From contig JACRPN010000001.1 in assembly GCA_016223145.1 (NCBI GenBank), forward strand, positions 62,001-126,000: a stretch of DNA of 64,000 nucleotides, in the 5' to 3' direction. The notes under the pieces are model-generated. The model saw only the letters and a program-made list of their open reading frames with translations, was not told the origin of the DNA and searched no databases. Source of the stretch: Armatimonadota bacterium (GTDB lineage Bacteria; Armatimonadota; Fimbriimonadia; Fimbriimonadales; Fimbriimonadaceae). Positions 4,540 to 63,181 of this stretch are shown piece after piece. The translations under genes were made by a program, and so were the position numbers. How positions within the stretch are numbered: the stretch's first letter is position 1; each line of letters begins with the position of its first letter.

Positions 4540-7500
4540 CTAGGGCACCAACCTCAGCTTCAGAGTTGAATGGACCTTGTCCCCCTTCTTCAGCAACCTT
4601 CCCTTTCCGTAGTTCAGCTCCCACTCCCAGAGCCCAGCGCCGGTGCCGCCGTAGAAATCGTTGACATGGACGGAGATGCGGTCGGTCTCCACCATCGCGC
4701 GCAGGTGTTGCGAGCCGTCCGAAAGGATCTCGGCACCACCCATATCGAACGACCAGACCTTCGCCCACCGGATGTGCCTCTTCGTGCTTCGAAAATCCAC
4801 TAGACCATACGCGTTGTGGGCAGACATACCTCCAGCGCCGACCTCCGGGTCTCTGCCTTCTCTCTTGTCCATGGGGTAGATCGACTGCGACAACGAACTG
4901 GCGTCGCCAGTTGCCCTCCCAATGTGGTTAGAGGGGTAAATGTCCCACTCTGCGTCTCGCTTCCACCGGATCATCGTGTCCTGAAGCCGCACGGAGAATC
5001 GCTGCCCTATCTCGCGAAACCAACGATCCTCTCCTTGGTAGGTGAACTCAGACTGGCAAGTGATCTCTCCTTCTGGGGTGATCAGGTAGTCGTAGGACCC
5101 CTCGAAAGCATCGTAGCTGCCAGCGACGTGAACTTTGACGTTGCGTTCGTTCTTGGTCACTGCGATTCCCTTGAACTTCCAGGTCTCCTGTGCCGGCATC
5201 GGCTTTAGGGGAGCGCCAGTCGGAAGCAAATGCAGCAAGGGGAGTTCGGTCAAGAACGGAGAGCCGTTGAGCGTGCAGCGGCGTAGCAGTCCGACATCCC
5301 GGCTGAACGCGATCTCAAACCGTTCGCCGGAAAGGGTCACGGTGTTGCCGCCAAGATCACCGGACTCGAAGATCGACAAAGGGCCTGAGAGGATCGGTTT
5401 GGCGGTAGGTTCTTCGCTGCTCTTTGGTCCCCAAGCGACGGCGTTGGGTACCGAGTAATCGGTCCACTTTGAGCGGGATACCTGCGGTGTGATCGACCAC
5501 TTGTCTGAATCTTGGAGGTCGCCCGAGCGAGGGAACACGATGAGCCCTTCGGACCTAGGTGGAATCGCCCCAACGCCAATCCGGAATCCCTGGGATAGCT
5601 TGTTGGACTGTAGGTGATACACGGCGCCCTGGATGGTCAGAAAGTCGTTATCATTCCTGATCCGAAGCGCCAGGTTCTGCTCCGTCCCCTCAAACGCAAC
5701 GCGCTCCACTCCCAGGATCTTCGTCGGTTCGTAGAGCATTCGGATGTGCCAGGTCTCTGGCTTGGGGCTTCTCCAACCGTCGACGACACCCCAAGGCGCA
5801 TCGCCAACGATCCCTCGATCCTTGAAGCTGTAGAGGGGCTCCACAAAGTGCGACCTTGTCGCCTCACGGCCGTATTCCAGGCCTCGATTGGGCACGCAGA
5901 AAAGGTCGTCGGACCAGGCCCAGATGAAGCTTCCCTGGGTGACCTTGCTCTTCTCGAACGCCGCCATGACCTCTTTGTAGGGCTCGACGTAGTAGTCCCG
6001 AATCCCCGGGTCCACCCACATTTCGGCCACGTCGTTCCAGATGCCCTGGAAGATGCACAAGCTCTCATCGAAGATCAGGGGGGCCTTCATCTTGCCCTCG
6101 GCATCCTGGATTCGGCTGAGAGCGAGCGGGTTGTGCAAGGTGTAGATGTCGAGTTTGGCAGTGCTGCGGCCCACCTCGTCGCCGGGCTGGGCGCTGGTGG
6201 CGGCGGATGCCGGACGTGAGGGGTCGGCCTTCTTGGCCCATTCGAGCGCGCGCCAAAACCCCCATCCATAGCCACTCTCATTGGCCATCGACCACCACGC
6301 AACGCTCGCGTGGTTGCGGTCGCGGGCGATCAGCTCGGCCGTGTGCTGGAGAATGAGGGGGGCGTTGCGAAGGTCGTCGGAGGCATCGGCCCAGCAGAAC
6401 GGCGCTTCATCTTCGACGTACAGCCCCAGTTCGTCGGCGATCTCGGGCAGGCTGGGATGCGGCGGATAGTGGCTGGTGCGGACGGCGTTCAGATTCGCCT
6501 CCTTCATCATCTCAAGATCGCGGCGCGTGTCGGCCTCGCTGACGGCCCGGCCCTTCAAAGGGTGCTGGTCGTGGTGGCAAGTGCCGCGAAACTTGACCGG
6601 AGTGCCGTTGATGAGGATCTCGGTGCCCTTGACCTCGGTTTGGCGGAAGCCTACGCGTTGGGTTACGGTCTGGAGGACTTTGCCCTTGTCGTCTTTGAGG
6701 GTGAGCTTGAGGTTGTAGAGGTTGGGGGTCTCTGCGGTCCAGAGCTTCGGGTTCCGGACGGCTGCACGAAGGTTTTTGCGCTGGCAGCTGAGTGCATCAA
6801 TTGATAGCCCCGGAGTGAAGACCATGCCCCTGTCTCCCAATCCTGGGGTCAATGCAAGCTGCTCACCCTTCATGTCTGTGAGCTCATGCTCCAACAAACA
6901 TGTGACTTCTCTTGAAGATTCGTTCGCTATGTCGACATTGACGAACGCCCTCTTCTCACCCCAATCCTCAACCCTCCACTCAAAATCCCGAATATGCACC
7001 TCAGGCACCTGGAACAGCTTCACGCTTCTCCAAATTCCCGCCAGATGGAAGTAGGCGTAGATGGACATCTTGTCCAGGTGGTCGCTGGCGACCGTGTGCT
7101 CCTGAACGTCCAGCGCCAGCACGTTTTCACCGGGCTTGAGAGCGTCGGTTAAGTCAGCTTCAAAGGGCGTCGCACCGCCAATATGCCTTGCAACGAGGAC
7201 CCCATTGCAGTACACCTCGCAGCCGGAGTACACGCCCTCGAAGCGGATTTTGGTGCGCATTTTCACCTCCCCCCTTGCTTCCGATTTCTGACTTGTCGGG
7301 AAGGGAGAGGTCGGTGAGCCTTGCGAACCGGGAGAGGGGGAGTTGGGAGCCTGAAACCTGACCCGGTAGCCCCCGTGTCCCGACCTGACCACAAACCCTT
7401 CCATCTCCCAATGTGCCGGCACCTGGATGTCTTTCCACTTGGAGTCGTCGAATCCTGGTTTCTCAAAGCCCTTGGGTGGGTCGCCCATGAACTTCCAGGT

Positions 7501-8529
7501 TCCATCGAGCAGGGTCACCTTGGGCTTGTAGCCAAGTTCGGTCAGGCCGTATTGGAAGTTGGCGGCGTCGATTTCGGCCGTAGCCGACTGCGCCGGCACG
7601 GAACCGGCGGCTACGGGCGCAAACCCTTTGGACGCCGGCACGGAACCGGCGGCTACCGAGCCCCCGGACGCAGGCTGAAGATCTGCGGCTACGGGCGCAA
7701 ACCCTTTGGACGCCGGCACGGAACCGGCGGCTACGGAGCTTCCGGACGCAGGCTGAAGACCGGCGGCTACGGGCGCAAACCCTTTGGACGCCGGCACGGA
7801 ACCGGCGGCTACGGAGCTTCCGGACGCAGGCTGAAGATCTGCGGCTACAGGTGTGAAATTGAATTTCACCTTGCCCTTCATTCCAACCGGCATGGGAACG
7901 GAGAACATCCCATTGGAGTCCGTTTGGACAGTCTTGCGCACCTCCACCCTACCGACCATCCGCACCTCCACACTCCCCAAGTGCGGCTCCGCTCCCCACC
8001 CGTCCGTCACGATCCCGACGATGTTCCCCTGCAAGTCGCTGGCGGCGTGAATCTCGGGCTTTCCGGCGGCATAGGGTTCGGAATACACCTCGACTTCGCG
8101 GAACGTGGGGCCGTTGGTGATGTTGCCGAGGCGCACCTTGGGCGTCATCACCGGCTCAAACCGGCAGATCACGATCCCTCGAAGGCGTTGGCCCTTCTCG
8201 CCAAAATGCTGCAGCGTCCGCCAGTCGCCCTTGGCGTCATCCCAAACCTGAACGTCCAGTTCCTCGGTGTAGGTGCCGTACTGGTGCACCACCACTTCAG
8301 CCACCTTGACCGCCGTGGGCCAATCGAGCTGATACCAGGCGCCCACGTTGTGCCCGGGGATCCCGGACCAGCGGGTGTTCGGATTGCCGTCGTTGGCCCG
8401 CTCCGGGCGATAATCGCCATAGAACTCGAACGCCGAGGCCTTGGCAGAAAGAGCGAGATTCTTTGGCGCGGCGTTCTGGCTCACGCCGATCGCCCCCGCA
8501 AGGACGAGAGGAAGGAGGAATTGGAGCAT
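4540..8529 (-). CDS. Secreted GH2 glycoside hydrolase (beta-galactosidase-like) with F5/8 type C domain and repeat-derived insertions
   Basis: A 1329-residue exported enzyme. Residues 1-20 are a signal peptide; about 25-150 form an F5/8 type C (discoidin) carbohydrate-binding domain; about 155-225 look like a small beta-sandwich linker; then GH2 jelly-roll, Ig-like and TIM-barrel domains, with NAVRTSHYPPHPSLPEIADE as the barrel signature, the acid/base Glu in MANESG near residue 751 and a likely nucleophile Glu in IFDESL near residue 822. A C-terminal beta-galactosidase small-chain-like region follows. Two stretches do not belong to the family: residues about 227-314 are a Pro/Ala/Ser tandem repeat, and 393-422 a Pro/Ser-rich insert inside the sugar-binding domain. 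Substrate is probably a beta-galactoside of plant or exopolysaccharide origin. Confidence 0.92.
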   Translation of the reverse strand: MLQFLLPLVLAGAIGVSQNAAPKNLALSAKASAFEFYGDYRPERANDGNPNTRWSGIPGHNVGAWYQLDWPTAVKVAEVVVHQYGTYTEELDVQVWDDAKGDWRTLQHFGEKGQRLRGIVICRFEPVMTPKVRLGNITNGPTFREVEVYSEPYAAGKPEIHAASDLQGNIVGIVTDGWGAEPHLGSVEVRMVGRVEVRKTVQTDSNGMFSVPMPVGMKGKVKFNFTPVAADLQPASGSSVAAGSVPASKGFAPVAAGLQPASGSSVAAGSVPASKGFAPVAADLQPASGGSVAAGSVPASKGFAPVAAGSVPAQSATAEIDAANFQYGLTELGYKPKVTLLDGTWKFMGDPPKGFEKPGFDDSKWKDIQVPAHWEMEGFVVRSGHGGYRVRFQAPNSPSPGSQGSPTSPFPTSQKSEARGEVKMRTKIRFEGVYSGCEVYCNGVLVARHIGGATPFEADLTDALKPGENVLALDVQEHTVASDHLDKMSIYAYFHLAGIWRSVKLFQVPEVHIRDFEWRVEDWGEKRAFVNVDIANESSREVTCLLEHELTDMKGEQLALTPGLGDRGMVFTPGLSIDALSCQRKNLRAAVRNPKLWTAETPNLYNLKLTLKDDKGKVLQTVTQRVGFRQTEVKGTEILINGTPVKFRGTCHHDQHPLKGRAVSEADTRRDLEMMKEANLNAVRTSHYPPHPSLPEIADELGLYVEDEAPFCWADASDDLRNAPLILQHTAELIARDRNHASVAWWSMANESGYGWGFWRALEWAKKADPSRPASAATSAQPGDEVGRSTAKLDIYTLHNPLALSRIQDAEGKMKAPLIFDESLCIFQGIWNDVAEMWVDPGIRDYYVEPYKEVMAAFEKSKVTQGSFIWAWSDDLFCVPNRGLEYGREATRSHFVEPLYSFKDRGIVGDAPWGVVDGWRSPKPETWHIRMLYEPTKILGVERVAFEGTEQNLALRIRNDNDFLTIQGAVYHLQSNKLSQGFRIGVGAIPPRSEGLIVFPRSGDLQDSDKWSITPQVSRSKWTDYSVPNAVAWGPKSSEEPTAKPILSGPLSIFESGDLGGNTVTLSGERFEIAFSRDVGLLRRCTLNGSPFLTELPLLHLLPTGAPLKPMPAQETWKFKGIAVTKNERNVKVHVAGSYDAFEGSYDYLITPEGEITCQSEFTYQGEDRWFREIGQRFSVRLQDTMIRWKRDAEWDIYPSNHIGRATGDASSLSQSIYPMDKREGRDPEVGAGGMSAHNAYGLVDFRSTKRHIRWAKVWSFDMGGAEILSDGSQHLRAMVETDRISVHVNDFYGGTGAGLWEWELNYGKGRLLKKGDKVHSTLKLRLVP
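7262..7350 (-). repeat. Repeat-derived in-frame insertion in the GH2 gene (residues about 393-422)
   Basis: The insert splits the GH2 sugar-binding domain between YRVRFQAP and MRTKIRFEGVYSG. Its peptide SPSPGSQGSPTSP matches APSPGSLRSPASP of the Dxs N-terminal extension at codon level in the same reading frame, 29 of 36 bases agreeing by hand alignment. It also contains TCCCGACA-like sequence seen in spacers. It is read as coding because no stop or frame change occurs. Confidence 0.7.
7590..7850 (-). repeat. 78-bp tandem repeat inside the GH2 gene
   Basis: Copies of GCCGGCACGGAACCGGC start at 7592, 7634, 7712 and 7790; the last three are exactly 78 bp apart and the first unit is truncated to 42 bp. 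Each unit encodes a 26-residue Ala/Pro/Ser/Val block and keeps frame since 78 and 42 are multiples of three. A single related unit lies in the spacer at 36999-37066 and a core copy at 29509-29525. Confidence 0.9.
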
Positions 8530-17436: not shown

Positions 17437-17638
17437 CTCACCCCCCGCAAAACGTCAGCGCCCCACTGCAACCCAGCCGCCCCCGCGGGTATGGAAAGAC
17501 CACAGCCGATGTCGCACAAGCGTCTCGCCGGTATGGAGAGATCACAGCCGGATGTAGCACAGGCGTCTCGCCTGTGTTTCCTCGCCGCGAGCATTGTCCG
17601 AGCCGCCTCCCCCTCACCCCCCGCAAAACGTCAGCGCC
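17437..17638. repeat. Repeat cassette flanked by 26-bp direct repeats at the 3' end of comF
   Basis: Identical 26-bp sequences occupy 17437-17462 and 17613-17638. The second copy is the true 3' end of comF (last codons and stop), so the first is a duplicate. Between them lie two diverged tandem units (17489-17530 and 17531-17573) and a palindrome, CACAGGCG-TCT-CGCCTGTG at 17558-17576. This looks like an insertion or expansion event that duplicated its target edge. Confidence 0.8.
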
Positions 17639-29487: not shown

Positions 29488-29508
29488 TGTCGTTCACAGC
29501 CTGTAGCC

Positions 29509-29525
29509 GCAGGTTCCGTGCCTGC
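29509..29525 (-). repeat. Dispersed repeat core GCAGG-CACGGAA-CCTGC
   Basis: On the minus strand this is identical to the core at 37003-37019 and differs from the GH2 tandem copies (GCCGG/CCGGC arms) by a paired change. It is followed on the plus strand by GCGCAGGCGAGACGCC, which resembles the palindrome at 17558. Confidence 0.8.
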
Positions 29526-36716: not shown

Positions 36717-37197
36717 CTGCATCAGGCAGACTGAGTCCCACTAGGGACTCCCGACAGGCTTTGGGACAAGCCCCAAATTGGCGTCGCCTTCATAGATGAA
36801 AGCAGATTCCCGAAGGTGTTAGTGCCCGACCGCACCCCCAATACACTGAGGCGGGCGGCAGAAAGGAAAAGAGATCGAGAATATGGAGCGAAAGGCCTGT
36901 TTGAACCTATTTTCTTTTTGCCGCCTTCCTCACTTTCTTATAGGAAGAAAGCAGGGCAGAAAGAAGGGAGGCGCATCTCCAAGCCCACTCTCCGCCACGG
37001 GCGCAGGCACGGAACCTGCGGCTACGGCAAGCCTTTGGACGCAGGCCGAAGCCCGTGGCTATGATGAGGGGTATCGCCTATCGCTCTTCGCTCCTACATC
37101 TTGCCGGCTCGGACGGAACCTTGCCCTCGCCCCCATAGCCTCTTCCGGGCACGATTCACAACTCGGCGCTGTTTCGAAGCGTAGGAAAAGGTAACCC
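36717..37197. repeat. Repeat-rich spacer upstream of dxs
   Basis: Contains a short AGTCCC-ACTA-GGGACT hairpin (36734-36749), a TGAGGCGGGCGGCAGAA element (36843-36864), and at 36999-37066 a single unit homologous to the GH2 tandem repeat: GCAGGCACGGAACCTGC, then GGCTACGG, CCTTTGGACGC and a GCAGGC-GAAG segment in the same order. AGGAAAAGG at the right edge is the dxs ribosome-binding site. Confidence 0.8.
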
Positions 37198-37530
37198 GTG
37201 GAGACAGGAGAAACCCCAGGCACACAACCTCGCACCCAATCGGCCCTGAACTCTGAGGCGAAGGGCGAAGAAGTAGCCCCCTCCTTGGTTTTGCGGAGCG
37301 AAAATGCTTCCGAGTCCCGACAGGTCGGGAAGGAGCGGGTTGTCGCAGATCCCGCCGAGCGTAGTGAGGGGAACGAAGTCGGGAGGGGTGGAGACAGTCC
37401 CGCCCCCTCACCCGGTTCACTTCGTTCACCGGCCTCTCCCCAAGGGGCGAGGGAGGACACCCCCTCACCCCAGACCCCAAACCCCGAACCCCTCACCCCA
37501 AACCCCTCACCCCAGACCCCTTCCTCCCTC
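37198..37530 (+). repeat. Repeat-derived coding extension at the dxs 5' end
   Basis: A mosaic of spacer-type pieces read in frame: a TCCCGACAGGTCGGGA palindrome near 37316, GTAGTGAGGGGAACGAAG text, CCCTCACCCGGTTCACTTC (shared with the GH2 insert at 7262-7350) near 37400, and C-rich ACCCCAAACCCC tandem words at 37460-37522. The 111 codons contain no stop. Confidence 0.75.
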
Positions 37531-62331: not shown

Positions 62332-62913
62332 TCAAATGGTTTCAACCGGGCACCTGTCCACCTCGAACGGCCACGGAGGGAGGCACTCGTAGAATCGGTA
62401 GGAAGACCAGGGCCATTCGTCCGGCCTCTCACAGAGCCCTCTGGCAACTGGGTTGCCATGGATGTAGGCGATGCAGGCATAGGTGGAGTTCGAGCTCCAC
62501 AGATTCCGGTCGTAGCCCTTGCCCTCCTGCCAGAACCGGGCCCCAACCCTGGCTTTCTCCACGATTCGAAGCTCGTGCAGCATGGAAGTGTCGTTCTGCC
62601 GAAGCCAGGAAAGGGCCCGGAAAGCAGACTTCTGCCTGAAGCTCGAACGTATTCTCTCGATCGAATAGGACTCCTGATTCGGCTTGAGCAGTAGATGCAG
62701 GTGCTCCGGCATCAACACGTAGGCCCAGACTTGAAGGTCAAACTCACTCCTGACCTCATCCAGCACATCGAGCATAGTCCTTCGGACCTCGTCGTGCTGG
62801 ATCAATGGAAGTCTCTTGAAGCAGGAAAGAGTGAGCTCGTGGGCATGCCGAGGTTCGTTCCAGTCCACCCTCTGGCCAAGCTCTCTCACCACGGCTGGAT
62901 GTTGCTTTCTCAT
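62332..62913 (-). CDS. REP-associated tyrosine transposase (RAYT/TnpA_REP)
   Basis: About 193 residues of the Y1 HUH superfamily. The HUH motif appears as MPEHLHLLLKP, and the helix with the catalytic Tyr as ACIAYIHGNPVARGLC; SYRFYECLP is the RAYT C-terminal consensus WSSYRFY. RAYTs process REP palindromes, but unlike IS200 elements occur as single chromosomal genes. REP-like hairpins flank it on both sides. The ATG at 62913 is used; an upstream open frame is not conserved. Confidence 0.9.
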   Translation of the reverse strand: MRKQHPAVVRELGQRVDWNEPRHAHELTLSCFKRLPLIQHDEVRRTMLDVLDEVRSEFDLQVWAYVLMPEHLHLLLKPNQESYSIERIRSSFRQKSAFRALSWLRQNDTSMLHELRIVEKARVGARFWQEGKGYDRNLWSSNSTYACIAYIHGNPVARGLCERPDEWPWSSYRFYECLPPWPFEVDRCPVETI

Positions 62914-62934
62914 CAAGGAGCAACTCCAATAGCA

Positions 62935-62951
62935 CCACCCATGAAGGGTGG
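62935..62951. repeat. REP-like hairpin upstream of the RAYT gene
   Basis: CCACCC-ATGAA-GGGTGG lies 22 bp upstream of the start. It shares its six-base stem with the downstream hairpin at 62204. The remaining spacer to 63181 has no recognised gene. Confidence 0.7.
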
Positions 62952-63181
62952 AGGCACCCACCTACTTCCCATCAAAGGGTATTCCCACTCGTCACTACTC
63001 CAGTTGACAAACGCCACTCCCAAGCGCCTCGTCTAGATGAGCTCCCCATAGCAACCCACCCTTCCTCAATATCGCCATGCCTAAAGTACTGGATTTCCCG
63101 AAGTGGAGAAGTATTTGGAGGATTTCGAGGACGCGTGGTCCATCCTTGCCTGCCGAAAACGCGGTGGCAAGCTCAGCCCCA

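Follow-up and report, generated by a model that had tools for sequence, protein, structure and literature searches.

A GTAG-type REP family with a probable cognate RAYT in a genome of Armatimonadota, and its in-frame array in a GH2 glycosidase gene

The REP unit and its copies in the window

The hairpin-forming repeats found in the window (the whole stretch of 64,000 nucleotides analysed here) belong to a dispersed family that is best explained as GTAG-type REP elements with a cognate RAYT encoded at C10 of the same genome. This reading, to which we assign a probability of about 0.88, accounts jointly for the spread of the family, the covariation of its stems, and its arrays. On the strand opposite to that first described, the core of the unit reads GTAGC-CGC(N)GG-TTCCGTG-CC(N)GCG, i.e. 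a GTAG tag, a stem of 6-7 bp, and a constant loop, and the whole hairpin takes up 24 nt with GTAG at one end, in keeping with the GTAG REP superfamily, whose stem-loops measure 20-40 nt and carry GTAG or a near variant of it. Among 100 copies only one stem pair varies freely, GTAG is exact in 83 (the remainder being mostly one-base variants), the loop-closing pair is T-G in 92, and the tag and the unpaired loop are about as well conserved as the stem. A mismatch at the variable pair is predicted to weaken the folding of the DNA, from -8.1 to -3.1 kcal/mol. The unit contains no T run.

The elements of the window to which we refer below are:

4540..8529, minus strand: GH2 glycosidase gene (1329 aa, assigned by Pfam domains), host of the REP array
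7592..7848, minus strand: intragenic array of seven head-to-tail REPs with two loop types, in frame as VAAGSVPASKGFAPVAAGLQPASG-type repeats
7592..7614, minus strand: REP copy, C-G class (GTAGCCGCCGGTTCCGTGCCGGC)
7634..7656, minus strand: REP copy, C-G class
7669..7692, minus strand: REP of the TCTTCAG-loop subfamily (GTAGCCGCAGATCTTCAGCCTGCG)
7712..7734, minus strand: REP copy, C-G class
7747..7770, minus strand: REP of the TCTTCAG-loop subfamily with mixed arms (GTAGCCGCCGGTCTTCAGCCTGCG)
7790..7812, minus strand: REP copy, C-G class
7825..7848, minus strand: REP of the TCTTCAG-loop subfamily (GTAGCCGCAGATCTTCAGCCTGCG)
29503..29525, plus strand: single REP copy, A-T class (GTAGCCGCAGGTTCCGTGCCTGC), in a spacer or in an ORF start that is weakly supported
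37003..37025, minus strand: REP copy, A-T class, upstream of the ORF at 37198
37041..37063, minus strand: decayed REP with a CTTCGGC loop (CATAGCCACGGGCTTCGGCCTGC), neighbouring the 37003 copy, identified by direct reading of the sequence

A preliminary description had reported arms GCCGG/CCGGC in the GH2 gene as opposed to GCAGG/CCTGC at two other sites, and both forms were recovered with 0 mismatches in the 64-kb window: GCCGGCACGGAACCGGC at 7592, 7634, 7712, and 7790 (+), and GCAGGCACGGAACCTGC at 29509-29525 (-) and 37003-37019 (+). The copy at 37003 also preserves the order GGCTACGG..CCTTTGGACGC..GCAGGC, as described there. Within the window, six exact matches to the 15 fixed bases are far above chance, and a loose search allowing 3 mismatches, with 7 matches found vs 5.9 expected, is not above chance.

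The pattern of which this observation was a correct glimpse is larger, with about 112 copies in the genome and a link to a RAYT. This count was obtained in the 3.87-Mb genome with a covariance model built from 50 copies (E <= 0.1), and may be a lower bound, 150 first-look candidates having been scored. Exact matches to the motif number more than 70 across the genome; allowing up to 3 mismatches over 21 fixed positions, the scanned genome stretches yielded 100 copies vs 0 for shuffled motifs, and with additional stretches included the total came to 107 copies in 56 clusters.

The covariance model found only 0-2 copies in each of 84 members of the same taxonomic family, copies within one mismatch occur in two of the 61 genomes searched (the genome itself and G008), and two genomes of the same genus lack the family. 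The exact repeat pattern had no match in contigs of named genomes, and no transposition, excision, or empty single-REP site was seen between near-identical strains. In the related genome G008 (L089:1270-2240) we also found three similar REPs within a longer conserved repeat (ggccaccggcaggtGTAGCCGC..gtgagcg).

Covariation of the stem

At the variable pair, C-G is found in 54 copies, A-T in 37, and G-C in 10, so that 101 of the 107 copies are complementary, while six are unpaired, one of them as a G-T wobble; because both arm positions were left free in the scan, the scan carries no bias toward pairing. With one copy taken per cluster, 47 of 52 are complementary, compared with a shuffle mean of 22, and none of 100,000 shuffles reached as high a value. 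In the alignment of 50 copies 98% of the cells are paired, vs 24-51% in slid controls, and double changes occur in 22 copies vs 9.7 after shuffling. Since the copies are related to each other, these figures are not probabilities, this genome contains few independent double changes, and the within-genome covariation may rest on few events. Complementary change is seen beyond this position as well: in the array L197 four copies carry CGTCGG/CCGACG, a compensated replacement of C-G by T-A at the next stem pair, and in L204, of the CTTCAG-loop subfamily, a GCAGG/CCTGC copy (A-T) lies 54 bp from a GCCGG/CCGGC copy (C-G). A palindrome kept by complementary changes is again a feature of the GTAG REP superfamily.

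The preliminary description had staked its case on an excess of compensatory changes once all copies were collected, and the excess is there, including the second pair of L197 and four pairs at homologous RAYT loci (see below). Its proposal that the folded form and not the protein is what maintains pairing is supported: with some three quarters of the clusters falling outside genes, selection on proteins cannot account for the pairing. Selection on the folded form and arm repair by template switching would both produce such covariation. Template switching between the arms (quasipalindrome correction) turns one-sided mutations into paired ones with neither selection nor a transposase; according to a published report it both generates compensatory pairs in hairpins and maintains them (PMC8794818), and the scarcity of mismatched intermediates, 6 of 107 copies, agrees with it. 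However, the T-G pair at the base of the loop persists uncorrected in 92 of 100 copies, which argues against template switching as the main force, and it leaves unexplained both the conserved GTAG and loop of more than 100 dispersed copies and the REPs that flank RAYT genes in many genomes. We regard it as unlikely to be the principal explanation, although it may act jointly with the REP mechanism.

Genomic context of the copies

According to heuristic gene calls, 38 of 52 clusters lie outside genes, 4 partially and 10 completely inside, and the family is thus dispersed, high-copy, and mainly intergenic like the other members of the GTAG superfamily. The intergenic clusters fall between unidirectional (21), convergent (12), and divergent (3) gene pairs (p 0.011 against 1:2:1). 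This avoidance of divergent pairs could suggest that the hairpins work mainly as RNA, i.e. as transcription terminators or mRNA stabilisers, with pairing maintained for that reason, and such functions have been proposed for REPs elsewhere (PMC3733652). Yet the orientation of the REPs relative to unidirectional genes is near even (18 against 12), the tag and the unpaired loop match the stem in their degree of conservation, approximately, some copies are intragenic, and a T run is missing, all of which make a primary role in RNA quite improbable. We found no strand bias by local GC skew (30 against 22, p 0.33).

The C10 RAYT and its homologues

The genome contains twelve matches to Y1 transposases, among which the gene G000:C10:37685-38185 (-) is assigned to NCBIfam NF047646, REP_Tyr_transpos (81.2 bits, cut-off 80), and to Pfam Y1_Tnp (28.7 bits, cut-off 23). 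Its product carries the motifs DHLH and YICANP, i.e. the HUH and the catalytic Tyr, and the gene is flanked by three REP copies of the family on one side and by one inverted copy on the other. HUH and Tyr motifs, inverted GTAG hairpins at the flanks, and dispersed cognate repeats whose palindrome is kept by complementary mutation are all shared with the RAYT/TnpA_REP systems (Nunvar et al. 2010, PMC2817692; Corneloup et al. 2021, PMC8266576). The motifs are nearest to subclass 2.5 / group 3 (DH[LF]H, YI[VI]ANP; PMC6006769), and the WQ motif is absent. The C10 protein, known here from its sequence, is distant from the TnpA_REP proteins studied so far, and a sequence search against solved structures gave no significant match. 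Its score barely above the family cut-off and this lack of a structural match speak against the REP/RAYT reading, as do the near absence of inverted REP pairs from the genome, the loose clustering of loop types on the RAYT tree, the few events on which the within-genome covariation may rest, and the finding of no transposition, excision, or empty single-REP site between near-identical strains.

Homologues of this RAYT are present in 26 of 291 genomes of Armatimonadota, this one included; named MAGs assigned to Armatimonadota, Planctomycetota, Chloroflexi, and others carry them as well, and among these is a bin with the label of a methanogen. The genome studied here is itself placed in Armatimonadota, as Fimbriimonadaceae-like, on the basis of RAYT relatives in named bins of Armatimonadota and Fimbriimonadaceae. 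Many of the homologues are flanked by GTAG hairpins of their own, in which the stems are different and the loops related (GTAGCCGCTGCCTCCGTGGCAGCG, GTAGTCGACGTCTCCGTGGCGTCG, GTAGCCGGAGGTGGTTCGTGCCTCCG, and more). Several of these repeats were located by identity between the two flanks, with no hairpin required; one list of flanking hairpins did require a hairpin, and its percentage of pairing is therefore biased upward. Across twelve homologous loci, compensated changes occur at four of six stem pairs, with 14 double-change cells vs 3.3 expected, and, at the RAYT locus L119, compensated changes distinguish the upstream REPs from the downstream ones. Mapped on the RAYT tree, loop types are loosely clustered and do not correspond one-to-one to branches.

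Some further Y1-related observations deserve mention. Nearly identical RAYTs occur at L121 and L123, one in a bin labelled as a Methanoregulaceae archaeon and the other in a Fimbriimonadaceae bin, which suggests recent transfer or mis-binning. Another Y1 transposase gene of the genome (G000:C9:2357-3164, L055) is bordered by REPs of a second GTAG family (GTAGCCCAGGCGTCTCGCCTGGG); a copy of this family with a compensated outer pair (GTAGCACAGGCGTCTCGCCTGTG) lies at 17554-17576 in the window, adjoining a 42-bp tandem. The window also contains, at 62332-62961, a Y1 transposase ORF of the MPEHLHLLLKP type with a paralogue at G000:C13:122681-122920, and the two share a long similar downstream repeat that is unrelated to GTAG REPs.

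Head-to-tail arrays

Neighbouring copies are arranged head-to-tail in 49 of 51 pairs and inverted in 2 (p about 1e-12 under equal orientation, a value in which copies derived from local duplication are not independent). The family shares with REPINs (Bertels and Rainey 2011, PMC3116915) the dispersed RAYT-linked REPs, compensatory changes, and some flank-containing tandem arrays, but REPINs, like BIMEs, are built of inverted REP pairs, and with two inverted pairs out of 51 that unit is not what we see here. According to published work, most genomes have few or no head-to-tail REP dimers, while clusters can be reiterated together with their flanks (PMC3733652; PMC3116915). The head-to-tail bias and the locus-specific spacers are the less usual features of this family among REPs. 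Within many loci the spacers resemble one another, but from locus to locus they differ. In L053 the spacer equals the right flank followed directly by the left, the two overlapping by 3 nt, i.e. a clean tandem duplication; such a composition is clear in few arrays (L053, L085, L049, and L069), and most array spacers match neither flank well. The RAYT might itself make these arrays by cutting and rejoining a REP with its own flank, a possibility that we regard as rather doubtful. CRISPR was rejected on the array layout, the spacers being alike within an array and the copies dispersed, and DNA uptake sequences were rejected because they leave the tag and the RAYT unexplained.

The in-frame array of the GH2 gene

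The Pfam domains of the GH2 protein are F5/8 C (residues 31-138), GH2_N (341-509), GH2 (511-629), and GH2_C (632-877). The 78-bp tandem had been described with correct coordinates and sequences, as exact matches and Tandem Repeats Finder agree (7607-7848, period 78, 3.1 copies, 95% matches); the period stands, but the unit has to be redefined, since each is made up of two REPs placed head-to-tail, whose loops are TTCCGTG and TCTTCAG. The array codes for a stretch rich in Ala, Ser, Gly, and Pro at about residues 228-315, i.e. about 90 residues of an interdomain linker ahead of the GH2 sugar-binding domain. In the orthologues of G014 and G038, which lack the array, the alignment ends at residue 223-224 and resumes at 316-318 after an intervening 15 and 27 bases, respectively, so the array is most simply interpreted as a derived in-frame insertion.

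All five well-supported sense intragenic copies (GH2, L049, L064, L071, and L077) are read in the same frame, as VAAGSVPA or VAAGSMPA, in which the variable stem pair falls on two synonymous positions. Together with the in-frame 78-bp unit, this would fit a variable-number repeat selected as a protein linker, with DNA hairpins incidental, but a TAG stop in one of the three sense frames means that the frame bias is in part expected, and the unit is found at some 50 further sites, most of them outside genes, and beside a RAYT. A protein-level repeat alone is contradicted by the intergenic copies, and we consider it extremely improbable. At L049 (16631-19786) a REP is inserted in frame close to the end of a protein of 1052 aa, the tail of which resembles the SecA SEC-C motif (GRNDPCPCGSGK).

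Proposed mechanism and significance

For cutting, mobility, and the mode of array growth we infer the following course of events. TnpA_REP proteins cut single-stranded REPs beside the hairpin, GTAG being important and, in group 3, loop bases as well (PMC8266576). The C10 RAYT, encoded between inverted REPs, is the most likely agent of the spread: the REP strand, when single, would fold into a hairpin, whose GTAG and loop this putative HUH/Tyr nuclease would read, cutting at a short dinucleotide beside it and joining the freed end elsewhere to seed new copies. If any paired state is tolerated at the free stem pair while foldable copies alone serve as substrates, a change in the stem would spread only with a change of the partner base, which would yield the C-G, A-T, and G-C subfamilies, T-A at the next pair, and an invariant loop. 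Head-to-tail arrays would arise when a REP and its flank are duplicated locally in tandem, and one such array kept the frame in the GH2 gene and became its linker.

Elements of this kind are already known. The GTAG REP superfamily (Di Nocera et al. 2013, PMC3733652) exhibits the same tag, short GC-rich stem-loop, complementary stem subfamilies, tandem clusters that include flanking DNA, intragenic copies, and REP-flanked RAYT genes, but here the loop is TTCCGTG, and that work does not list Armatimonadota among its phyla; in the open-access literature, this phylum is unmentioned in the main REP surveys (PMC3733652 and PMC6006769). The family, its host, and its style of array are new members or variants, and they extend a well-defined REP/RAYT pair to Armatimonadota. 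One genome serves as a natural mutant library, in which tag and loop are constant while one stem pair occurs in three paired states, and this library predicts the bases that the RAYT reads. The GH2 gene offers a REP array turned into an in-frame linker of a protein, which can be compared with orthologues that lack the array. If the RAYT does make the arrays, they would represent a local, directional mode of tandem amplification distinct from the spread of REPINs, and one by which genes such as GH2 could also acquire new in-frame linkers.
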